DNA of 64,000 nucleotides from Chryseobacterium arthrosphaerae. GTDB lineage: Bacteria > Bacteroidota > Bacteroidia > Flavobacteriales > Weeksellaceae. Positions 12,720 through 39,999 of the stretch are shown piece by piece (position 1 is the stretch's first letter; every line of letters begins with the position of its first letter). The DNA lies in NCBI RefSeq assembly GCF_001684965.1, contig NZ_MAYG01000001.1:744001-808000 (forward strand). Reading direction: 5' to 3'. The translations under genes and the position numbers were made by a program. The notes beneath the pieces are model-generated. The model ran no database searches and was not told where the DNA came from. It saw only the letters and a list, made by a program, of their open reading frames with translations.

Positions 12720-12792
12720 GACTCGGTAGCTCAGCTGGTAGAGCAATACACTTTTAATGTATGGGTCCTGGGTTCGAATCCCAGCCGGGTCA
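12720..12792 (+). tRNA. tRNA-Lys (anticodon UUU), copy 1
   Basis: Cloverleaf with acceptor stem GACTCGG / CCGGGTC, D arm GCTC...GAGC, anticodon stem ATACA / TGTAT with loop CTTTTAA (anticodon TTT), and T arm CTGGG-TTCGAAT-CCCAG. The discriminator base is A. CCA is not encoded. It is the first of three identical copies. Confidence 0.97.
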
Positions 12793-12856
12793 CAAATAAA
12801 AGAGAACACTTTATAAGGCAGTTCCTTAAATAAAAATTACTTAGAAATAAGTGGCC

Positions 12857-12929
12857 GACTCGGTAGCTCAGCTGGTAGAGCAATACACTTTTAATGTATG
12901 GGTCCTGGGTTCGAATCCCAGCCGGGTCA
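12857..12929 (+). tRNA. tRNA-Lys (anticodon UUU), copy 2
   Basis: Identical in sequence to copy 1, 137 bp downstream, with the same TTT anticodon and no encoded CCA. Confidence 0.97.
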
Positions 12930-12993
12930 CAAACAAAAGAGAACACCTCATAAGGCAGTTCCTTAAACAAAAATTACTTAGAAATAAGTGGCC

Positions 12994-13066
12994 GACTCGG
13001 TAGCTCAGCTGGTAGAGCAATACACTTTTAATGTATGGGTCCTGGGTTCGAATCCCAGCCGGGTCA
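12994..13066 (+). tRNA. tRNA-Lys (anticodon UUU), copy 3
   Basis: Identical to copies 1 and 2. Followed after 7 bases by the terminator of the cluster. Confidence 0.97.
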
Positions 13067-21139: not shown

Positions 21140-21490
21140 TCATGTCCCATGCATGAATTTTTGCCTGCTCAGTAATACTTCCTCTGTTTCCCGGTGGTCG
21201 GGATCGTCGATACAGCAGTCTACAGGACATACGGCTTTACATTGCGGTTCTTCATGAAAGCCCTTGCACTCAGTACATTTTCCGGACACAATATAATAGA
21301 CTTCATCTGAGACAGCCTGATTATAAGCATTAGCATCTGCTGTTGTACCATCCGGAAAAGTGATGGTTCCTGAGAGTTTGGTTTTGTCCTGCCAGCGCCA
21401 GTCGATAGCCCCTTCATAAATGGCTGAATTGGGGCATTCGGGCTCGCAGGCTCCGCAGTTGATGCAGTCATCGGTTATTTTTATAGCCAT
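21140..21490 (-). CDS. Ferredoxin with two 4Fe-4S clusters
   Basis: A 116-residue ferredoxin. The first cluster motif is C9-x2-C12-x2-C15-x3-C19-P. The second is C72-x2-C75-x8-C84-x3-C88-P, with the extended loop typical of Alvin-type or bacterial 2[4Fe-4S] ferredoxins. An insert of about 45 residues separates the motifs. It is a low-potential electron carrier. It lies 133 bases after the 2Fe-2S ferredoxin gene, with a hairpin between, so it may be read both from the upstream operon and from its own promoter. Confidence 0.93.
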   Translation of the reverse strand: MAIKITDDCINCGACEPECPNSAIYEGAIDWRWQDKTKLSGTITFPDGTTADANAYNQAVSDEVYYIVSGKCTECKGFHEEPQCKAVCPVDCCIDDPDHRETEEVLLSRQKFMHGT

Positions 21491-21515
21491 ATTATGTATT
21501 TTAAGAGTTTGTAAA

Positions 21516-21552
21516 AGGGATTTCTTCAGCTTGTACTGCTTTAGAAATCCCT
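21516..21552 (-). terminator. Hairpin between the two ferredoxin genes
   Basis: AGGGATTTCT / AGAAATCCCT, 10-bp inverted repeat with a 17-base loop, followed on the minus strand by TTTTAC. It may partly stop transcription before the 4Fe-4S ferredoxin gene. Confidence 0.5.
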
Positions 21553-21623
21553 GCTAACTTAATTAAAACAGTTTCAACAATTTATATACATCATAAACTG
21601 TGCAAACCTGTATCTTAAATCTG

Positions 21624-21947
21624 TTAATCTGCTGCGATTTTTACAGAAAGTCCGTCCATTTGAGCGGTAAGGTGAATCTGACAGGCTAGCCTGCTGTTTT
21701 CCCCGGAATTGAAAAGCTCAGATAGAAGTGCTTCTTCAATATCACTTTTTTCAGGTAATGTTGTTTCCCCATCAAGAATGTAGCAGTGGCAGGTAGCGCA
21801 CATGGCCATTCCGCCGCACATTGCTTCCATAGGCAGATCGCAGGCTTTACAAATATCCTTTAAAGTAAGACCCATCTCCAGCGGGCAGACCAGGGCATGC
21901 TCATGACCATCCTGATCTGTTACGGTAATTGTAATTTCATTCTCCAT
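21624..21947 (-). CDS. 2Fe-2S ferredoxin (adrenodoxin type)
   Basis: A 107-residue ferredoxin. The cluster ligands are C44-x5-C50-x2-C53 and C89, the spacing of vertebrate-type or bacterial ISC-associated and P450-associated 2Fe-2S ferredoxins. It lies 4 bases after the ferredoxin reductase gene, so the two are very likely electron-transfer partners: NADPH to FAD of the reductase, then to this protein. Confidence 0.93.
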   Translation of the reverse strand: MENEITITVTDQDGHEHALVCPLEMGLTLKDICKACDLPMEAMCGGMAMCATCHCYILDGETTLPEKSDIEEALLSELFNSGENSRLACQIHLTAQMDGLSVKIAAD

Positions 21948-21951
21948 GGCA

Positions 21952-23004
21952 TCAGTCGATCGTTGCTACTACTTGTTTTTCTGCCTGCTTTTTTGTTCCG
22001 TCAAAACCTTCAATCCCGCTTACGGTGGTATATTTCAAAACAAACTTTTTGTTTGGGTTAAGGCGCTGATAAATGCTCTGGCAGGCGATAGCTGTTTCGT
22101 GAAAACCACAGAGGATCAGTTTCATTTTATAAGGATAGGTATTGATGTCACCTACAGCATAAACTCCAGGAATGCTGGTCTGGAAATCAGTGCTGTTATC
22201 CACCTTTATGGCGTTCTTTTCCAGTTCCAGCCCCCAATCTGTCAAAGGTCCCAGTTTAGGTACCAATCCGAACAGAGGAATGAAGTGATCCGTTTCTATA
22301 GTCTGGAGAGTTCCTTCCTTCTCCACAATGATTCTTTGTAAAGCACCATTACCTTCAAGTCCGATAACTTCAGCCGGTGTAATCAGATTGATTTTTCCCT
22401 GATGCTTCAGTTTTTTCACTTTTTCAACGGAGTCTAAAGCTCCTCTGAATTCATTCCGTCTGTGAATCAGAGTAAGGGAAGATGCTATTTCAGCAAGATG
22501 AACAGACCAGTCCAGAGCAGAGTCACCTCCTCCGGCTATGACAACATGTTTCCCTACATAATCCTCCGGACGCTTAATGAAATAGCTGACACCTTTTTCC
22601 TCAAAGTCAGCGATATTTTCAATGGGTGGTTTTTTAGGCTCAAAGCTTCCCAGACCTCCTGCAATAATAACGGCTTTGGCTCTGTGTCTTGTTCCTTTAT
22701 CTGTGATCACCTCAAACAGGTTTTCTTCCAGCTTCAGAAGATGTACCGCCGTTTCATTGAAAGTAAAACCAGGTTCAAACTGCCGGATCTGCTCATAAAG
22801 TTGATCAATCAGATCACCGGCAAGCACACTGGGAAATCCCGGAATATCGAAAATAGGTTTCTTGGGATATAATTCTGATAACTGGCCTCCCATCTGGGGT
22901 AATGCATCTATAATATGGCACCGCATTTTGAGAAGGCCGGCTTCAAATACCGTAAATAACCCTGCAGGGCCGGCTCCAATGATCAGTATATCTGTTTCTA
23001 TCAT
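21952..23004 (-). CDS. Ferredoxin-NADP+ reductase, thioredoxin-reductase-like
   Basis: A 350-residue FAD protein of the bacterial TrxR-like ferredoxin reductase family (like YumC). The FAD motif GAGPAGLFTVFEAG is at residues 10-23, the NADPH motif VIAGGGDSALDW near 160, and the C-terminal FAD motif GVYAVGDI near 285. There is no CxxC active-site disulfide, so it is not a thioredoxin reductase. It lies one base after the flavin reductase gene and 4 bases before the 2Fe-2S ferredoxin gene. It belongs to the operon headed by superoxide dismutase. Confidence 0.93.
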   Translation of the reverse strand: MIETDILIIGAGPAGLFTVFEAGLLKMRCHIIDALPQMGGQLSELYPKKPIFDIPGFPSVLAGDLIDQLYEQIRQFEPGFTFNETAVHLLKLEENLFEVITDKGTRHRAKAVIIAGGLGSFEPKKPPIENIADFEEKGVSYFIKRPEDYVGKHVVIAGGGDSALDWSVHLAEIASSLTLIHRRNEFRGALDSVEKVKKLKHQGKINLITPAEVIGLEGNGALQRIIVEKEGTLQTIETDHFIPLFGLVPKLGPLTDWGLELEKNAIKVDNSTDFQTSIPGVYAVGDINTYPYKMKLILCGFHETAIACQSIYQRLNPNKKFVLKYTTVSGIEGFDGTKKQAEKQVVATID

Positions 23005-23005
23005 G

Positions 23006-23575
23006 TTACAAATGATTTATAGTTGTTTTTTCTATTTTTTTTGAGGCTGCAATGCTGATAAGCTTTTCAAACTTATTGATATACAGCGGGGAAATTTCCT
23101 TTTTATCGTCTCCGTTAAATAATGCAGACCGAACAATAGGGACACTGAACGGGAGTGGCCATGCCCGTAATGATTTGGCTATAACATCCATCGCATTAAT
23201 GCCCTGCATAGCCTGCAAGCCGTCTGCCCAGCATACCAGTCCCACCGTTTTATCTGTCAGGTAAGGCTCATACCTGTTAGCGGTAACTTCAAGCCAGTCG
23301 AGGCAGTTTTTCATCACTCCCGGGATGCTCCCGTGGTATAAAGGTGCCAGCCAGATGTGAAGATCAGCATCTGTAAACATCTGGGCCATGCGTTCTACCG
23401 CTAAAGGCGTTTTGGTAAGTGTGACATCAAACAGGGGAATCCCGGAATCCGCAAGGGTAAAAATGTCAGTCTGTACTCCCAGCGCTTCCAGACGGTCAGA
23501 AAAATAGCTGGAAATAATTCCTGAAGTAGACTCACTTCTTCTTTCCAGTGATCCGTTGAAAAGGATTGCTTTCAT
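23006..23575 (-). CDS. NAD(P)H-dependent FMN reductase family protein
   Basis: A 189-residue flavodoxin-fold protein. The FMN phosphate loop is near residues 8-17 (NGSLERRSES), and the PLYHGSIPGVMKNCLDW segment near residue 78 is the usual NADPH-dependent FMN reductase motif. Such enzymes supply reduced flavin or reduce quinones. It lies 6 bases after DUF2480 and one base before the ferredoxin reductase gene, in the redox operon. Confidence 0.92.
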   Translation of the reverse strand: MKAILFNGSLERRSESTSGIISSYFSDRLEALGVQTDIFTLADSGIPLFDVTLTKTPLAVERMAQMFTDADLHIWLAPLYHGSIPGVMKNCLDWLEVTANRYEPYLTDKTVGLVCWADGLQAMQGINAMDVIAKSLRAWPLPFSVPIVRSALFNGDDKKEISPLYINKFEKLISIAASKKIEKTTINHL

Positions 23576-23581
23576 GTTGTT

Positions 23582-24076
23582 TTATTTTTTGAAAATTACT
23601 TTGGGCAAACCTATTTCACCATACATCAGACTTTTGACCAAAGGCTGTAAAAGCCCGGCGGCCAGTAGATACAGGGCAGGGTCATGGTCTGCATTCGCTC
23701 TTACTACTACTTTCTGATCCTTATAGCACTTCAGGTCTGCATAGATGAGCCGGCGTTTCCACAGATCCAGCAGAATTGTTCCGGCGTTGTTCAGATCTGT
23801 ATAAACTGCGTAGGGATACAGCTTTTCCATAAGGAACATATAAGCCCATGGCGGAATAATGGCCTCCGTAGAGCAGACGATCCCCACTGCTTTTCCTTCA
23901 TAGATGGAAAAATCCACAGCAGCAATCGATTCTTTAAATTCCTTTTCCCTGACGATCATTCCCATGAAAAGATGGTCTTTGATATCCAGTTCTACAATTT
24001 CCGTAGTAGGTTTATAGGTTAAAAGATCAAAAGCAATGATACCCGATGCTTTTGCTTTATTGATAAAAGTTTCCAT
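23582..24076 (-). CDS. DUF2480 family protein
   Basis: A 164-residue protein of the DUF2480 family, found mainly in Bacteroidota. It contains the segment EAIIPPWAYMFL near residue 70 and a C-terminal Lys-rich tail. No signal peptide or membrane helix is visible. The function is unknown. Its position, 28 bases after sod and 6 bases before the flavin reductase, places it in oxidative-stress or Fe-S electron transfer. Confidence 0.9.
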   Translation of the reverse strand: METFINKAKASGIIAFDLLTYKPTTEIVELDIKDHLFMGMIVREKEFKESIAAVDFSIYEGKAVGIVCSTEAIIPPWAYMFLMEKLYPYAVYTDLNNAGTILLDLWKRRLIYADLKCYKDQKVVVRANADHDPALYLLAAGLLQPLVKSLMYGEIGLPKVIFKK

Positions 24077-24104
24077 TGATAATTGATTTTCCAGTCCGTA
24101 TCGG

Positions 24105-24731
24105 TTACCTTACTTTCGAAAGGGCTTCCTCATATTTTTTTTCTACAGCAGACCAGTCCAGCACAGACCAGAAAGCGTCAAGGTAATCTGCTCTCTTGTT
24201 CTGATAATTCAGATAGTAAGCGTGTTCCCAGATATCAATTCCAAGGATTGGAAAACCTCTGTTCACCGGAAGAACATCCATCATCGGGTTATCCTGATTG
24301 GGAGTAGAGCTTACTGCCAGCGAGCCGTTGAATTTTACATACAGCCAAACCCATCCTGAACCAAACTGAGCAAGACCTGTTTTCTTCATTTCAGCCTTTA
24401 ATTCTTCCAGGCTTCCGAAAGTGGAAGTAATTGCATCATTAAGTTTTCCTTCAGGCTTCAGTTTAGGCTGTGGAGAAAGGATTTCCCAGAATAAAGAATG
24501 ATTGTAGTGGCCACCGCCATTATTCCTGACCGCCGGGCTGTATTCACTTATTCTCTGTAATAATGAATCCAGATCCGGATTGGTCTCACTGGTTTGTGCC
24601 AGGGCAGTATTAAGATTATCTACATAGGCCTGGTGATGGCGCTGATGGTGAATGGTCATTGTTTCTGTATCGATAAAAGGAGTCAGGGCATCATAAGCAT
24701 AGGAAAGCTGAGGTAATGTAAATGGTTTCAT
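24105..24731 (-). CDS. sodA: Superoxide dismutase, Mn-type signature
   Basis: A 208-residue Fe/Mn superoxide dismutase. The metal ligands are in TIHHQRHHQAYV (near residue 28), GGGHYNHSLFW (near 76) and DIWEHAYYLNY (near 167). Gly occupies the position where Fe enzymes have Gln (NNGGGH), and Gln occurs in TPNQDNPM; both are Mn-type signatures. It lacks a signal peptide, so it is cytoplasmic. It is the first gene of a six-gene minus-strand redox operon. Its promoter is overlapped by a palindrome shared with the divergent SufR-like regulator. Confidence 0.95.
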   Translation of the reverse strand: MKPFTLPQLSYAYDALTPFIDTETMTIHHQRHHQAYVDNLNTALAQTSETNPDLDSLLQRISEYSPAVRNNGGGHYNHSLFWEILSPQPKLKPEGKLNDAITSTFGSLEELKAEMKKTGLAQFGSGWVWLYVKFNGSLAVSSTPNQDNPMMDVLPVNRGFPILGIDIWEHAYYLNYQNKRADYLDAFWSVLDWSAVEKKYEEALSKVR

Positions 24732-24759
24732 TCTGTTTATTTTTTTGATTACTGTGTGA

Positions 24760-24789
24760 CAAAGGTAATAATATATTTGAATAAAACAA
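24760..24789 (-). promoter_or_regulatory. Promoter of the sod redox operon
   Basis: On the minus strand, TTG (24789-24787), 19-base spacer and TACCTTTG (24767-24760) match the -33/-7 consensus. The -33 element is inside the palindrome at 24781-24806, a typical repressor arrangement. Confidence 0.8.
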
Positions 24790-24806
24790 CTTTTTAGTTG
24801 TTTTAT
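24781..24806. promoter_or_regulatory. Operator 1, palindrome overlapping the sod -33 element
   Basis: ATAAAACAAC-TTTTTA-GTTGTTTTAT is a perfect 10-bp inverted repeat with a 6-base spacer. The sequence AATAAAACAAC recurs at 24901-24911 by the second promoter of the same divergent region. Confidence 0.7.
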
Positions 24807-24863
24807 ATATTTGGATTTTAATTGATGTAACTTGTTGTTAGTGTGTGATTTATTCTTTATTTT

Positions 24864-24891
24864 TTGAAATTATAGAAAATGACTATCTTTG
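24864..24891 (+). promoter_or_regulatory. Promoter of the sufR-like gene
   Basis: TTG (24864-24866), 17-base spacer, TATCTTTG (24884-24891), 35 bases before the start codon. Confidence 0.75.
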
Positions 24892-24911
24892 TTGTTGAAA
24901 AATAAAACAAC
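24891..24911. promoter_or_regulatory. Operator 2, at the transcription start of the sufR-like gene
   Basis: GTTGTT (24891-24896) and AACAAC (24906-24911) are inverted repeats over the predicted start point. They share half-sites and the 11-base AATAAAACAAC with operator 1, which suggests autoregulation by the same protein. Confidence 0.65.
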
Positions 24912-24925
24912 CAAAATATTGTCAA

Positions 24926-25543
24926 ATGAAGAAATCAGCGGCAGACCGCATTCTGATGTTTTTGAAGATGAGAGGGGAGGCAACATCACTTCTTATTTCC
25001 GAAGAACTCTCCATCACCAAGGAAGGAGCGAGAAAGCATCTGCTGAATCTTGCCCAGGAAGGACTGATCCGGCCTGATGTGAAGAGCGAAGGAGTAGGCC
25101 GCCCATCTACTTACTATATTCTTACAGAAAAAGGACTGGCACAGTTTCCGGATACTCATGCCGACGTGACGGTACAGCTTCTGAAATCGGTAAAAAATCT
25201 ACTGGGTGAAAATGCACTGGAACTCCTGATCAGTGACCGTGAAAAAAATACCCATGACCGGTATGAAAAAGCACTTTCAAAAACCAGAAATCTGGAGCAG
25301 CGTCTTGAAGTACTTGCACAAGCCCGAAGCAAAGAAGGCTATATGGCAGAATGGAAAAAAGAAGGAAACGAATATTTCCTTATTGAAAACCATTGCCCGA
25401 TCTGTGCTGCCGCTACGGAATGCCAGGGGTTTTGCCGTGCCGAACTTTCCAATTTTCAGTCTCTGATCGGAAAAGAATATACCGTTGAAAGGGTAGACCA
25501 CATTATCTCCGGAGGGCAGCGCTGCGTATATAAGATCAGCTGA
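24926..25543 (+). CDS. SufR-like Fe-S-sensing transcriptional regulator
   Basis: A 205-residue regulator. The N-terminal winged helix (about 8-75, ISEELSITKEGARKHLLNLAQEGLI) is of the ArsR/DeoR-like type found in SufR. The C-terminal part carries a Cys cluster, C157-x2-C160-x5-C166-x3-C170, and C200 near the end, suited to binding a 4Fe-4S cluster. It is divergent from the sod-DUF2480-flavin reductase-ferredoxin reductase-ferredoxin operon, and both promoters carry related inverted repeats. It probably represses or activates both according to cluster state. No suf genes are in the window, so it is named SufR-like only. Confidence 0.88.
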   Translation: MKKSAADRILMFLKMRGEATSLLISEELSITKEGARKHLLNLAQEGLIRPDVKSEGVGRPSTYYILTEKGLAQFPDTHADVTVQLLKSVKNLLGENALELLISDREKNTHDRYEKALSKTRNLEQRLEVLAQARSKEGYMAEWKKEGNEYFLIENHCPICAAATECQGFCRAELSNFQSLIGKEYTVERVDHIISGGQRCVYKIS

Positions 25544-39576: not shown

Positions 39577-39999
39577 TTAAAACCTGAGATGATCTAAAAC
39601 CTTACCCAGCAGGTAATTAAATTGATCCAGTTCTTTCGGGGACAGTATTGCAGAGGTCTGCCGGGTGATATTTTTCCGGAAAGTTTCTGAGTTCTCGATG
39701 ATAAATCTCCCTTTTTCCGTGACAGAAAGATTAAATTTCCGGCGATCCGTTTCGTCTTGTTTCTGAATAATAAGATCATGCGTGATCAAAAACTTCAGCT
39801 GTTTTGAAATGGCTGCCTGGCTTATATTAAAAGCTGCTGAGATTTCTTTTCCCGTTGCTCCCTTTTTGCGGAGAATAAACTCAATAATATTATAATGAGC
39901 TGCCGTCACTCCATTAATGTTCCCTCTGTTCATATGAGCCAGAATAAGGCACTGAAAATCAGTAAATGTGTTAAAAAATTCTTTTTCAATCGGTTTCAT
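39577..39999 (-). CDS. MarR family transcriptional regulator
   Basis: A 140-residue winged-helix regulator. Its recognition helix region is near residues 52-75 (GKEISAAFNISQAAISKQLKFLITHDLI) and the wing near 80-90 (DETDRRKFNLSV). It is divergent from a UvrA-like gene with only 50 bases between the start codons and a TTAAC/GTTAA palindrome in the gap, so it very likely controls it. Confidence 0.92.
   Translation of the reverse strand: MKPIEKEFFNTFTDFQCLILAHMNRGNINGVTAAHYNIIEFILRKKGATGKEISAAFNISQAAISKQLKFLITHDLIIQKQDETDRRKFNLSVTEKGRFIIENSETFRKNITRQTSAILSPKELDQFNYLLGKVLDHLRF

Follow-up and report, generated by a model that had tools for sequence, protein, structure and literature searches.

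Which genes does a SufR-like regulator control when it stands beside a superoxide dismutase gene instead of the suf genes? The question is raised by a locus in a stretch of 64,000 nucleotides from Chryseobacterium arthrosphaerae (contig NZ_MAYG01000001.1, positions 744,001 to 808,000 of the forward strand), here called the window. In it a gene for a SufR-like winged-helix protein of 205 residues (24926..25543, plus strand) is divergent from six minus-strand genes, the first of which encodes a superoxide dismutase (SOD; gene sod) and the second a DUF2480 protein. We think it likely that the regulator is an iron-sulphur (Fe-S) sensor and that, in this lineage, it acts mainly on an operon for superoxide defence and electron transfer, in place of suf. 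The features read from the sequences themselves are the family relation to SufR, the conservation of two boxes and their positions in the promoters, the lack of a box at the genome's own suf operon, the co-occurrence of regulator and operon, and the covariation of a helix residue with the box half-site.

Candidate operator boxes and the recognition helix

The gap between the regulator gene and sod contains two boxes. Box 1 (24786..24801), ACAAC-TTTTTA-GTTGT, is a perfect palindrome that covers the sod promoter's -33 region, and the palindrome around it extends to 24780-24807. Its GTTGT arm falls on the -33 region, ending 18 nt before the -7 element TACCTTTG (24760..24767, minus strand, read 24767-24760). 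Box 2 (24907..24922), ACAAC-CAAAAT-ATTGT, starts 15 nt after the -7 element of the regulator's own promoter, TATCTTTG (24884..24891, plus strand), and is likely to be a site of autoregulation. Both -7 elements were assigned by TAnnTTTG, which we take to be the Bacteroidota consensus. The first-pass annotation had put two repeats sharing AATAAAACAAC at the sod -33 element and just after the regulator's -7 element, and both are indeed placed there; the conserved second arm of box 2 lies downstream of AATAAAACAAC. Since box 1 spans the -33 region and box 2 lies over the start region, either would be well placed to block polymerase. The SufR operator is given as CAAC-N6-GTTG in the available text of two papers (PMC8593673, PMC13421787); box 1 matches it perfectly and box 2 is one base off. 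A further half-site-like stretch, AACTTGTTGTTAG, lies between the two boxes at 24829-24841.

The best 80 of 96 relatives were kept for comparison (L-numbers denote fetched loci and G-numbers genomes). Among the named loci returned, from which the records closest to the window may have been omitted, the nearest relative is Chryseobacterium indologenes J31 (94%). When a box was called on at least 9 of the 10 arm bases of ACAAC-N6-RTTGT, 55 loci had both boxes, 15 had one and 10 had none. Loci with any box thus make up 70 of the 80; in 50 mononucleotide shuffles they numbered 0.24 on average and never more than 2. This control takes no account of shared ancestry, to which the free spacers are a partial answer: the six spacer bases vary, whereas the arms show little or no variation. 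Among Chryseobacterium loci L026-L080, site 1 is present in 55 of 55 and site 2 in 48. Most relatives that keep the gene order therefore keep the repeats, which counts in favour of the reading for which this check was first suggested. The promoter spacing is also largely kept where sod is divergent (73 loci). The distance from box to TAnnTTTG on the sod strand is 18 nt in 53 of these loci and 19 nt in 10 (for the other ten it is 17 nt in two, 16, 5 and 128 nt in one each, and not found in five). On the regulator strand box 2 follows TAnnTTTG by 15 nt in 46 loci and 14 nt in 15 (for the other twelve, 16 nt in two, 13, 23 and 52 nt in one each, and not found in seven).

The boxless ten include five Sphingobacterium relatives (L100, L101, L103, L104 and L105) with a CAAG variant, AATAAAACAAG-N6-CTTGTTTTATT or near to it, in place of the CAAC box, and L102, whose long palindrome has one base fewer in its centre. 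This half-site change follows residue 37 of the regulator, which lies in the recognition helix ITKEGARKHLLNL. Upstream regions were scored on the shared flanks only, with the varying base omitted, and 91 of 100 distinct rows reached the required score of at least 15/20. Lys37 is accompanied by C at the half-site (CAAC) in 73 of 73 scored distinct rows, or 76 of 76 including duplicates, and scored rows without Lys37 have C there in 0 of 18, the same when duplicates are included; Gln and Leu go mostly with CAAG, and Phe is mixed. The covariation is support for binding by the regulator, and no proof of it. Because the Lys rows form one clade it may be a single event, and it is probably one evolutionary change.

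In the 5.05-Mb source genome the extended palindrome, with up to three mismatches, occurs at one place, site 1, and nowhere in the reversed control. The plain ACAAC-N6-RTTGT motif is not specific, having 28 matches on both strands against 16 in the reversed control; because this count is near that of the control, we treat the extended palindrome as the specific form. The 28 matches correspond to 22 places, 18 of them inside open frames, and the only intergenic places besides the two boxes are in L018 and L021. The site in L021 (L021:1501-1516, G000:C32:111878-111893), ACAAC-CGCAAT-ATTGT with matching A/T flanks, immediately precedes a secreted-protein-like gene and has a sensor-kinase-like gene close by. 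Across 118 genomes of the genus, 31 of the 33 perfect extended boxes among the matches listed are within 200 bases upstream of the regulator gene.

The regulator, its cysteines and its suf-linked relatives

The regulator matches the SufR_cyano model TIGR02702 over its full length (residues 7-204 against model positions 4-208) with 106.9 bits, below the equivalog cut-off of 178.8 bits, which none of the 395 genomes in our survey of the phylum reaches. The SufR-like identity first proposed holds as a family relation; by the cut-off the protein is no member of the SufR equivalog. Our reading is that it works like SufR, equivalog membership being a separate question that the cut-off answers with no. 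Searches of the source genome's proteins returned one copy of the regulator, the sole other match to the SufR model being weak and partial (25.8 bits), to a MarR-like helix-turn-helix protein (39676-39891, minus strand). Neither Pfam nor NCBIfam gave a MerR-type (SoxR) domain with an E value of 0.01 or lower; the best match was SufR_cyano. In the AlphaFold model (mean pLDDT 85.6) residues 1-75 form the winged-helix domain.

The C-x2-C-x5-C-x3-C motif that had been named as the cluster site is present, as Cys157, Cys160, Cys166 and Cys170, and is incomplete: Cys200 is equally invariant, all five residues being kept in 81 of 81 sequences (the window and the 80 loci). A wider alignment had 112 rows, eight of which, being distant, were dropped by score; one of the remaining 104 was a gap row. 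In the 103 used, Cys157, 166, 170 and 200 are always kept and Cys160 is found in 101, being lost in L149 and L205. The L149 homologue (L149:6956-7618), with HCPIGAAAAEC in place of the usual motif, adjoins an azurin-like gene, named by eye, and has a CAAG-type box. The eight distant rows (L150-L157) are a separate SufR-like group in which NCPF with a later PC replaces the five-cysteine motif, and gave no suf or sod match with the references used. Reviews, in the parts available, give differing ligands for Synechocystis SufR, so the cysteines were compared with those of Mycobacterium tuberculosis SufR (Rv1460), for which the accessible text gives C203-x12-C216-x27-C244 as required. The regulator has the same x12 spacing and a second of about the same length (Cys157-x12-Cys170-x29-Cys200), and its cluster ligands are likely to include Cys200.

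Homologues of at least 100 bits number 13 genes across the phylum. Within the surrounding DNA that was fetched, eight have sod as their divergent neighbour (the window's own regulator, L139, L141, L142, L145, L146, L147 and L148), one has suf (L143) and one DUF2480 without sod (L144). In the other three (L138, L140 and L149) none of sod, suf or DUF2480 directly adjoins, the sod of L140 being about 2 kb off. Genome G282 of family f24 (L138, L147 and three more places) has five matches, of which four are full-length SufR-like paralogues and one is short. The family of G253, for which 147 genomes were surveyed, has a homologue in eight, seven of which adjoin suf genes: six are divergent, and L200 lies immediately before sufB, pointing the same way. 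These seven retain most of the cysteines, and CAAG-N6-CTTG lies in the gap of five (L143, L202, L203, L204 and L205). At L202:6773-7490 an FMN reductase gene lies between the suf-linked regulator and sufA, tying both target sets together.

The tree places one of the seven suf-linked rows, L200, with a sod-linked Pedobacter row (99/88) and leaves the other six outside the main sod-linked clade, which indicates at least two changes between suf and sod. Since the deep f24 rows L139, L141, L142 and L147 are sod-linked too, sod linkage may be the older state; with a root set by midpoint only and long branches among the suf-linked rows, the change may have gone either way.

The main rival to the Fe-S sensor is that the same cysteines serve a thiol or quinone redox switch in the style of YodB and MarR, or hold zinc in a repressor, with quinones or electrophiles as the cue and the FMN-reductase/SOD set as the target. 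The winged-helix fold does match MarR, PadR, YodB and HypR types, the operon holds an ArsH-like FMN reductase, and a perfect box precedes a nitroreductase-like gene in L083 (the genome of L209) and L086. Such a switch would hardly need five cysteines, however, and it fits poorly with a SufR match spanning the full length and with seven of eight homologues in one family flanking suf genes, six of the seven with the same motif as the regulator. We regard it as improbable.

The proposed regulon and the operon genes

The suf operon of the source genome lies on another contig, contig 12, where sufA, sufB, sufC and sufD were found and sufS and sufE were not located; no box of at least 9/10 occurs in 19 kb there. 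In its own genome the regulator is thus neither linked to suf nor matched by a box there, and because the suf operon has no box its regulon differs from the classical SufR regulon. The different regulon first proposed holds to this extent; in another Bacteroidota family, as described above, homologues do adjoin suf.

The regulator occurs in 60 of the 118 genus genomes, and the operon-type DUF2480 in exactly the same 60, beside a core-type copy; all 118 have at least one DUF2480. The 60 have at least three SOD matches each, and the other 58 have two (56 genomes) or one (2 genomes). In G494 some 330 kb of a single contig separate the regulator from the sod-DUF2480-FMN-ferredoxin operon. The sod promoter there nonetheless has a box of 9/10, which precedes the start codon by 53 bases (54 in the window) and TACCTTTG by 18 nt. 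The sod operon is also unlinked to the regulator in the genome of L083 and L209. In that genome and in L086 perfect boxes (L083:8198-8213; L209:4053, same genome; L086:8195-8210) precede the nitroreductase-like gene, which lies some 2 kb away from the regulator and is a likely further target; genes that by eye look MarR-like and OsmC-like come after it.

All reading frames of the locus are open, and the names first given to the six genes are borne out by sequence matches in Pfam, NCBIfam and PDB. The sod gene (24105..24731) encodes an Fe/Mn-family enzyme with Sod_Fe_N and Sod_Fe_C domains (PF00081/PF02777) above the gathering score; its best solved relatives are 6gsc and MnSODs. It is followed on the minus strand by the operon-type DUF2480 paralogue (23582..24076; PF10652, 144.7 bits; AlphaFold pLDDT 91.8), an ArsH-like FMN reductase of flavodoxin fold (23006..23575; PF03358, FMN_red; solved relative ArsH 2q62) and a thioredoxin-reductase-like ferredoxin--NADP reductase (21952..23004), whose best solved relatives are the ferredoxin--NADP reductases (FNR) 5ygq and 3ab1 and the entry 2zbw, named thioredoxin reductase. 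An adrenodoxin-like 2Fe-2S ferredoxin (21624..21947; PF00111; solved relative 2mjd) and a YfhL-type dicluster 4Fe-4S ferredoxin (21140..21490; NF033683, 97.5 bits against a cut-off of 86) complete the set. The gaps from sod onwards are 28, 6, 1, 4 and 133 bases, so that the spacing of 1-28 bases claimed for most genes is right for the first four and does not extend to the 4Fe-4S ferredoxin. The gene set likewise needs qualifying: DUF2480 (74/80 loci), sod (73/80) and the FMN reductase (73/80) are its core near the regulator, the ferredoxin reductase (22/80) and the 2Fe-2S ferredoxin (36/80) are optional in relatives, and the 4Fe-4S ferredoxin is found in 56/80.

The second, core-type DUF2480 copy lies elsewhere in the source genome. 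We had expected core copies near suf and dropped the idea when five fetched loci gave no SufA, SufB, SufC or SufD match; in the four of these that were listed the core copy adjoins an lpxB-looking gene, named by eye. Elsewhere in the window, 12720-13066 (plus strand) holds three tRNA genes with equal scores and starts 137 bases apart.

The second rival is a variant of the Fe-S sensor reading, and the odds of the two overlap: the operon would be an iron-starvation response, with cluster loss at low iron as the signal and SOD carried along. Fe-S ferredoxins would be odd products under iron starvation, and the operon offers no flavodoxin as a replacement. A swap from Fe- to Mn-SOD was considered and rejected, and none is visible because all three SODs of the genome share one motif, which we take to be Mn-type. 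Iron starvation as the main cue is doubtful, though not far-fetched.

Proposed mechanism, weight of evidence and known systems

For the preferred reading, a SufR-like Fe-S sensor over the superoxide-defence operon, we infer dimer binding, an Fe-S cluster, the direction of regulation and the inducing signal. A dimer of the regulator with its cluster intact would bind the ACAAC-N6-RTTGT boxes: on box 1 it would keep RNA polymerase off the sod -33 region, and on box 2 it would obstruct the regulator's own start. Superoxide or oxidants that break the cluster, or iron shortage, would then release the regulator from DNA, and additional SOD, DUF2480 protein, FMN reductase, ferredoxin reductase and ferredoxins would be made.

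Several observations weigh against this reading. The regulator falls short of the equivalog cut-off, and its homologues of at least 100 bits are sparse, occurring in 12 of the 395 phylum genomes. By the 9-of-10 rule 10 of the 80 loci have no box; besides the variants described above, the sites of L094 and L096 score 8 of 10, and at the regulator neither box is present in the further Chryseobacterium loci L083 and L086. The co-occurrence of regulator and operon is mostly physical linkage. The Lys37 rows are one clade (support 98/90), as a single change would give, Phe37 rows have no single half-site, and the nine unscored distinct rows include two with Lys, along with three suf-linked rows with CAAG. 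A 22-base box with one mismatch allowed is found in 91 of the 118 genus genomes, including 32 of the 58 without the regulator, so that it cannot be used alone for calling targets.

That the boxes belong to another DNA-binding protein, the regulator being only a neighbour, is very improbable: box binding by the regulator is a prediction from sequence and one-mismatch boxes do occur in genomes without it, but perfect extended boxes cluster upstream of its gene as described and residue 37 tracks the half-site.

The findings suggest that some Bacteroidota run their superoxide defence by a SufR-like sensor. A bolder account, to which we give somewhat less than an even chance, is that Bacteroidota turned SufR into a superoxide sensor of their own, a stand-in for SoxRS; that the family switched between sod and suf promoters on at least two occasions, the half-site (CAAG to CAAC or the reverse) and one helix residue changing together; and that DUF2480 is a new superoxide-defence or Fe-S-protection protein, duplicated for inducible use. 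The regulator is an apparent case of a sensor that keeps its signal and changes its regulon, in a third phylum and with a sharply defined target set. DUF2480, which is uncharacterised, gains a regulatory setting, and the rule relating helix to half-site is simple enough to be tested at the bench.

The available part of one paper takes SufR to occur only in Cyanobacteria and some Actinobacteria and to serve suf alone (PMC8593673); that of another names ftrC as an additional target (PMC13421787). Our search of the open literature, with subscription papers mostly outside its scope, found no report of a SufR-like regulator over a sod/DUF2480 operon among the matches listed, and no paper naming DUF2480.

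The SoxRS regulon of enterobacteria contains sod together with ferredoxin reductase and flavin reductase. The present locus resembles it in placing what we take to be an Fe-S sensor over the same three functions, and differs in that the regulator is of another protein family, would act as a repressor and has no second regulator. RisR of Myxococcus xanthus, an Rrf2-family protein, represses in its holo form, according to the accessible text, and is released when iron is limiting or under oxidative stress, which is the logic proposed here; the two families are unrelated, and RisR controls isc and suf.

The closest comparison is with SufR itself. Cyanobacterial SufR (Synechocystis sll0088, TIGR02702) shares full-length homology and a cysteine-bearing C-terminal domain with the regulator, and according to reviews, as far as their text is available, it represses its own gene, as is predicted for the regulator, and has the box CAAC-N6-GTTG. 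Unlike SufR, whose target is suf, the regulator scores below the equivalog cut-off and would act on a sod/DUF2480/redox operon. It also has the near-invariant Cys160 and Cys166 in addition to the Rv1460 triad, and its box arms extend into AATAAAA. With actinobacterial SufR the regulator shares the nearly kept triad of Rv1460, and the available text on Streptomyces avermitilis SufR gives the same CAAC-N6-GTTG box (PMC11995493). In those actinobacteria sufR heads the suf operon, whereas in C. arthrosphaerae suf lies elsewhere, without a box, and the regulator stands opposite sod.

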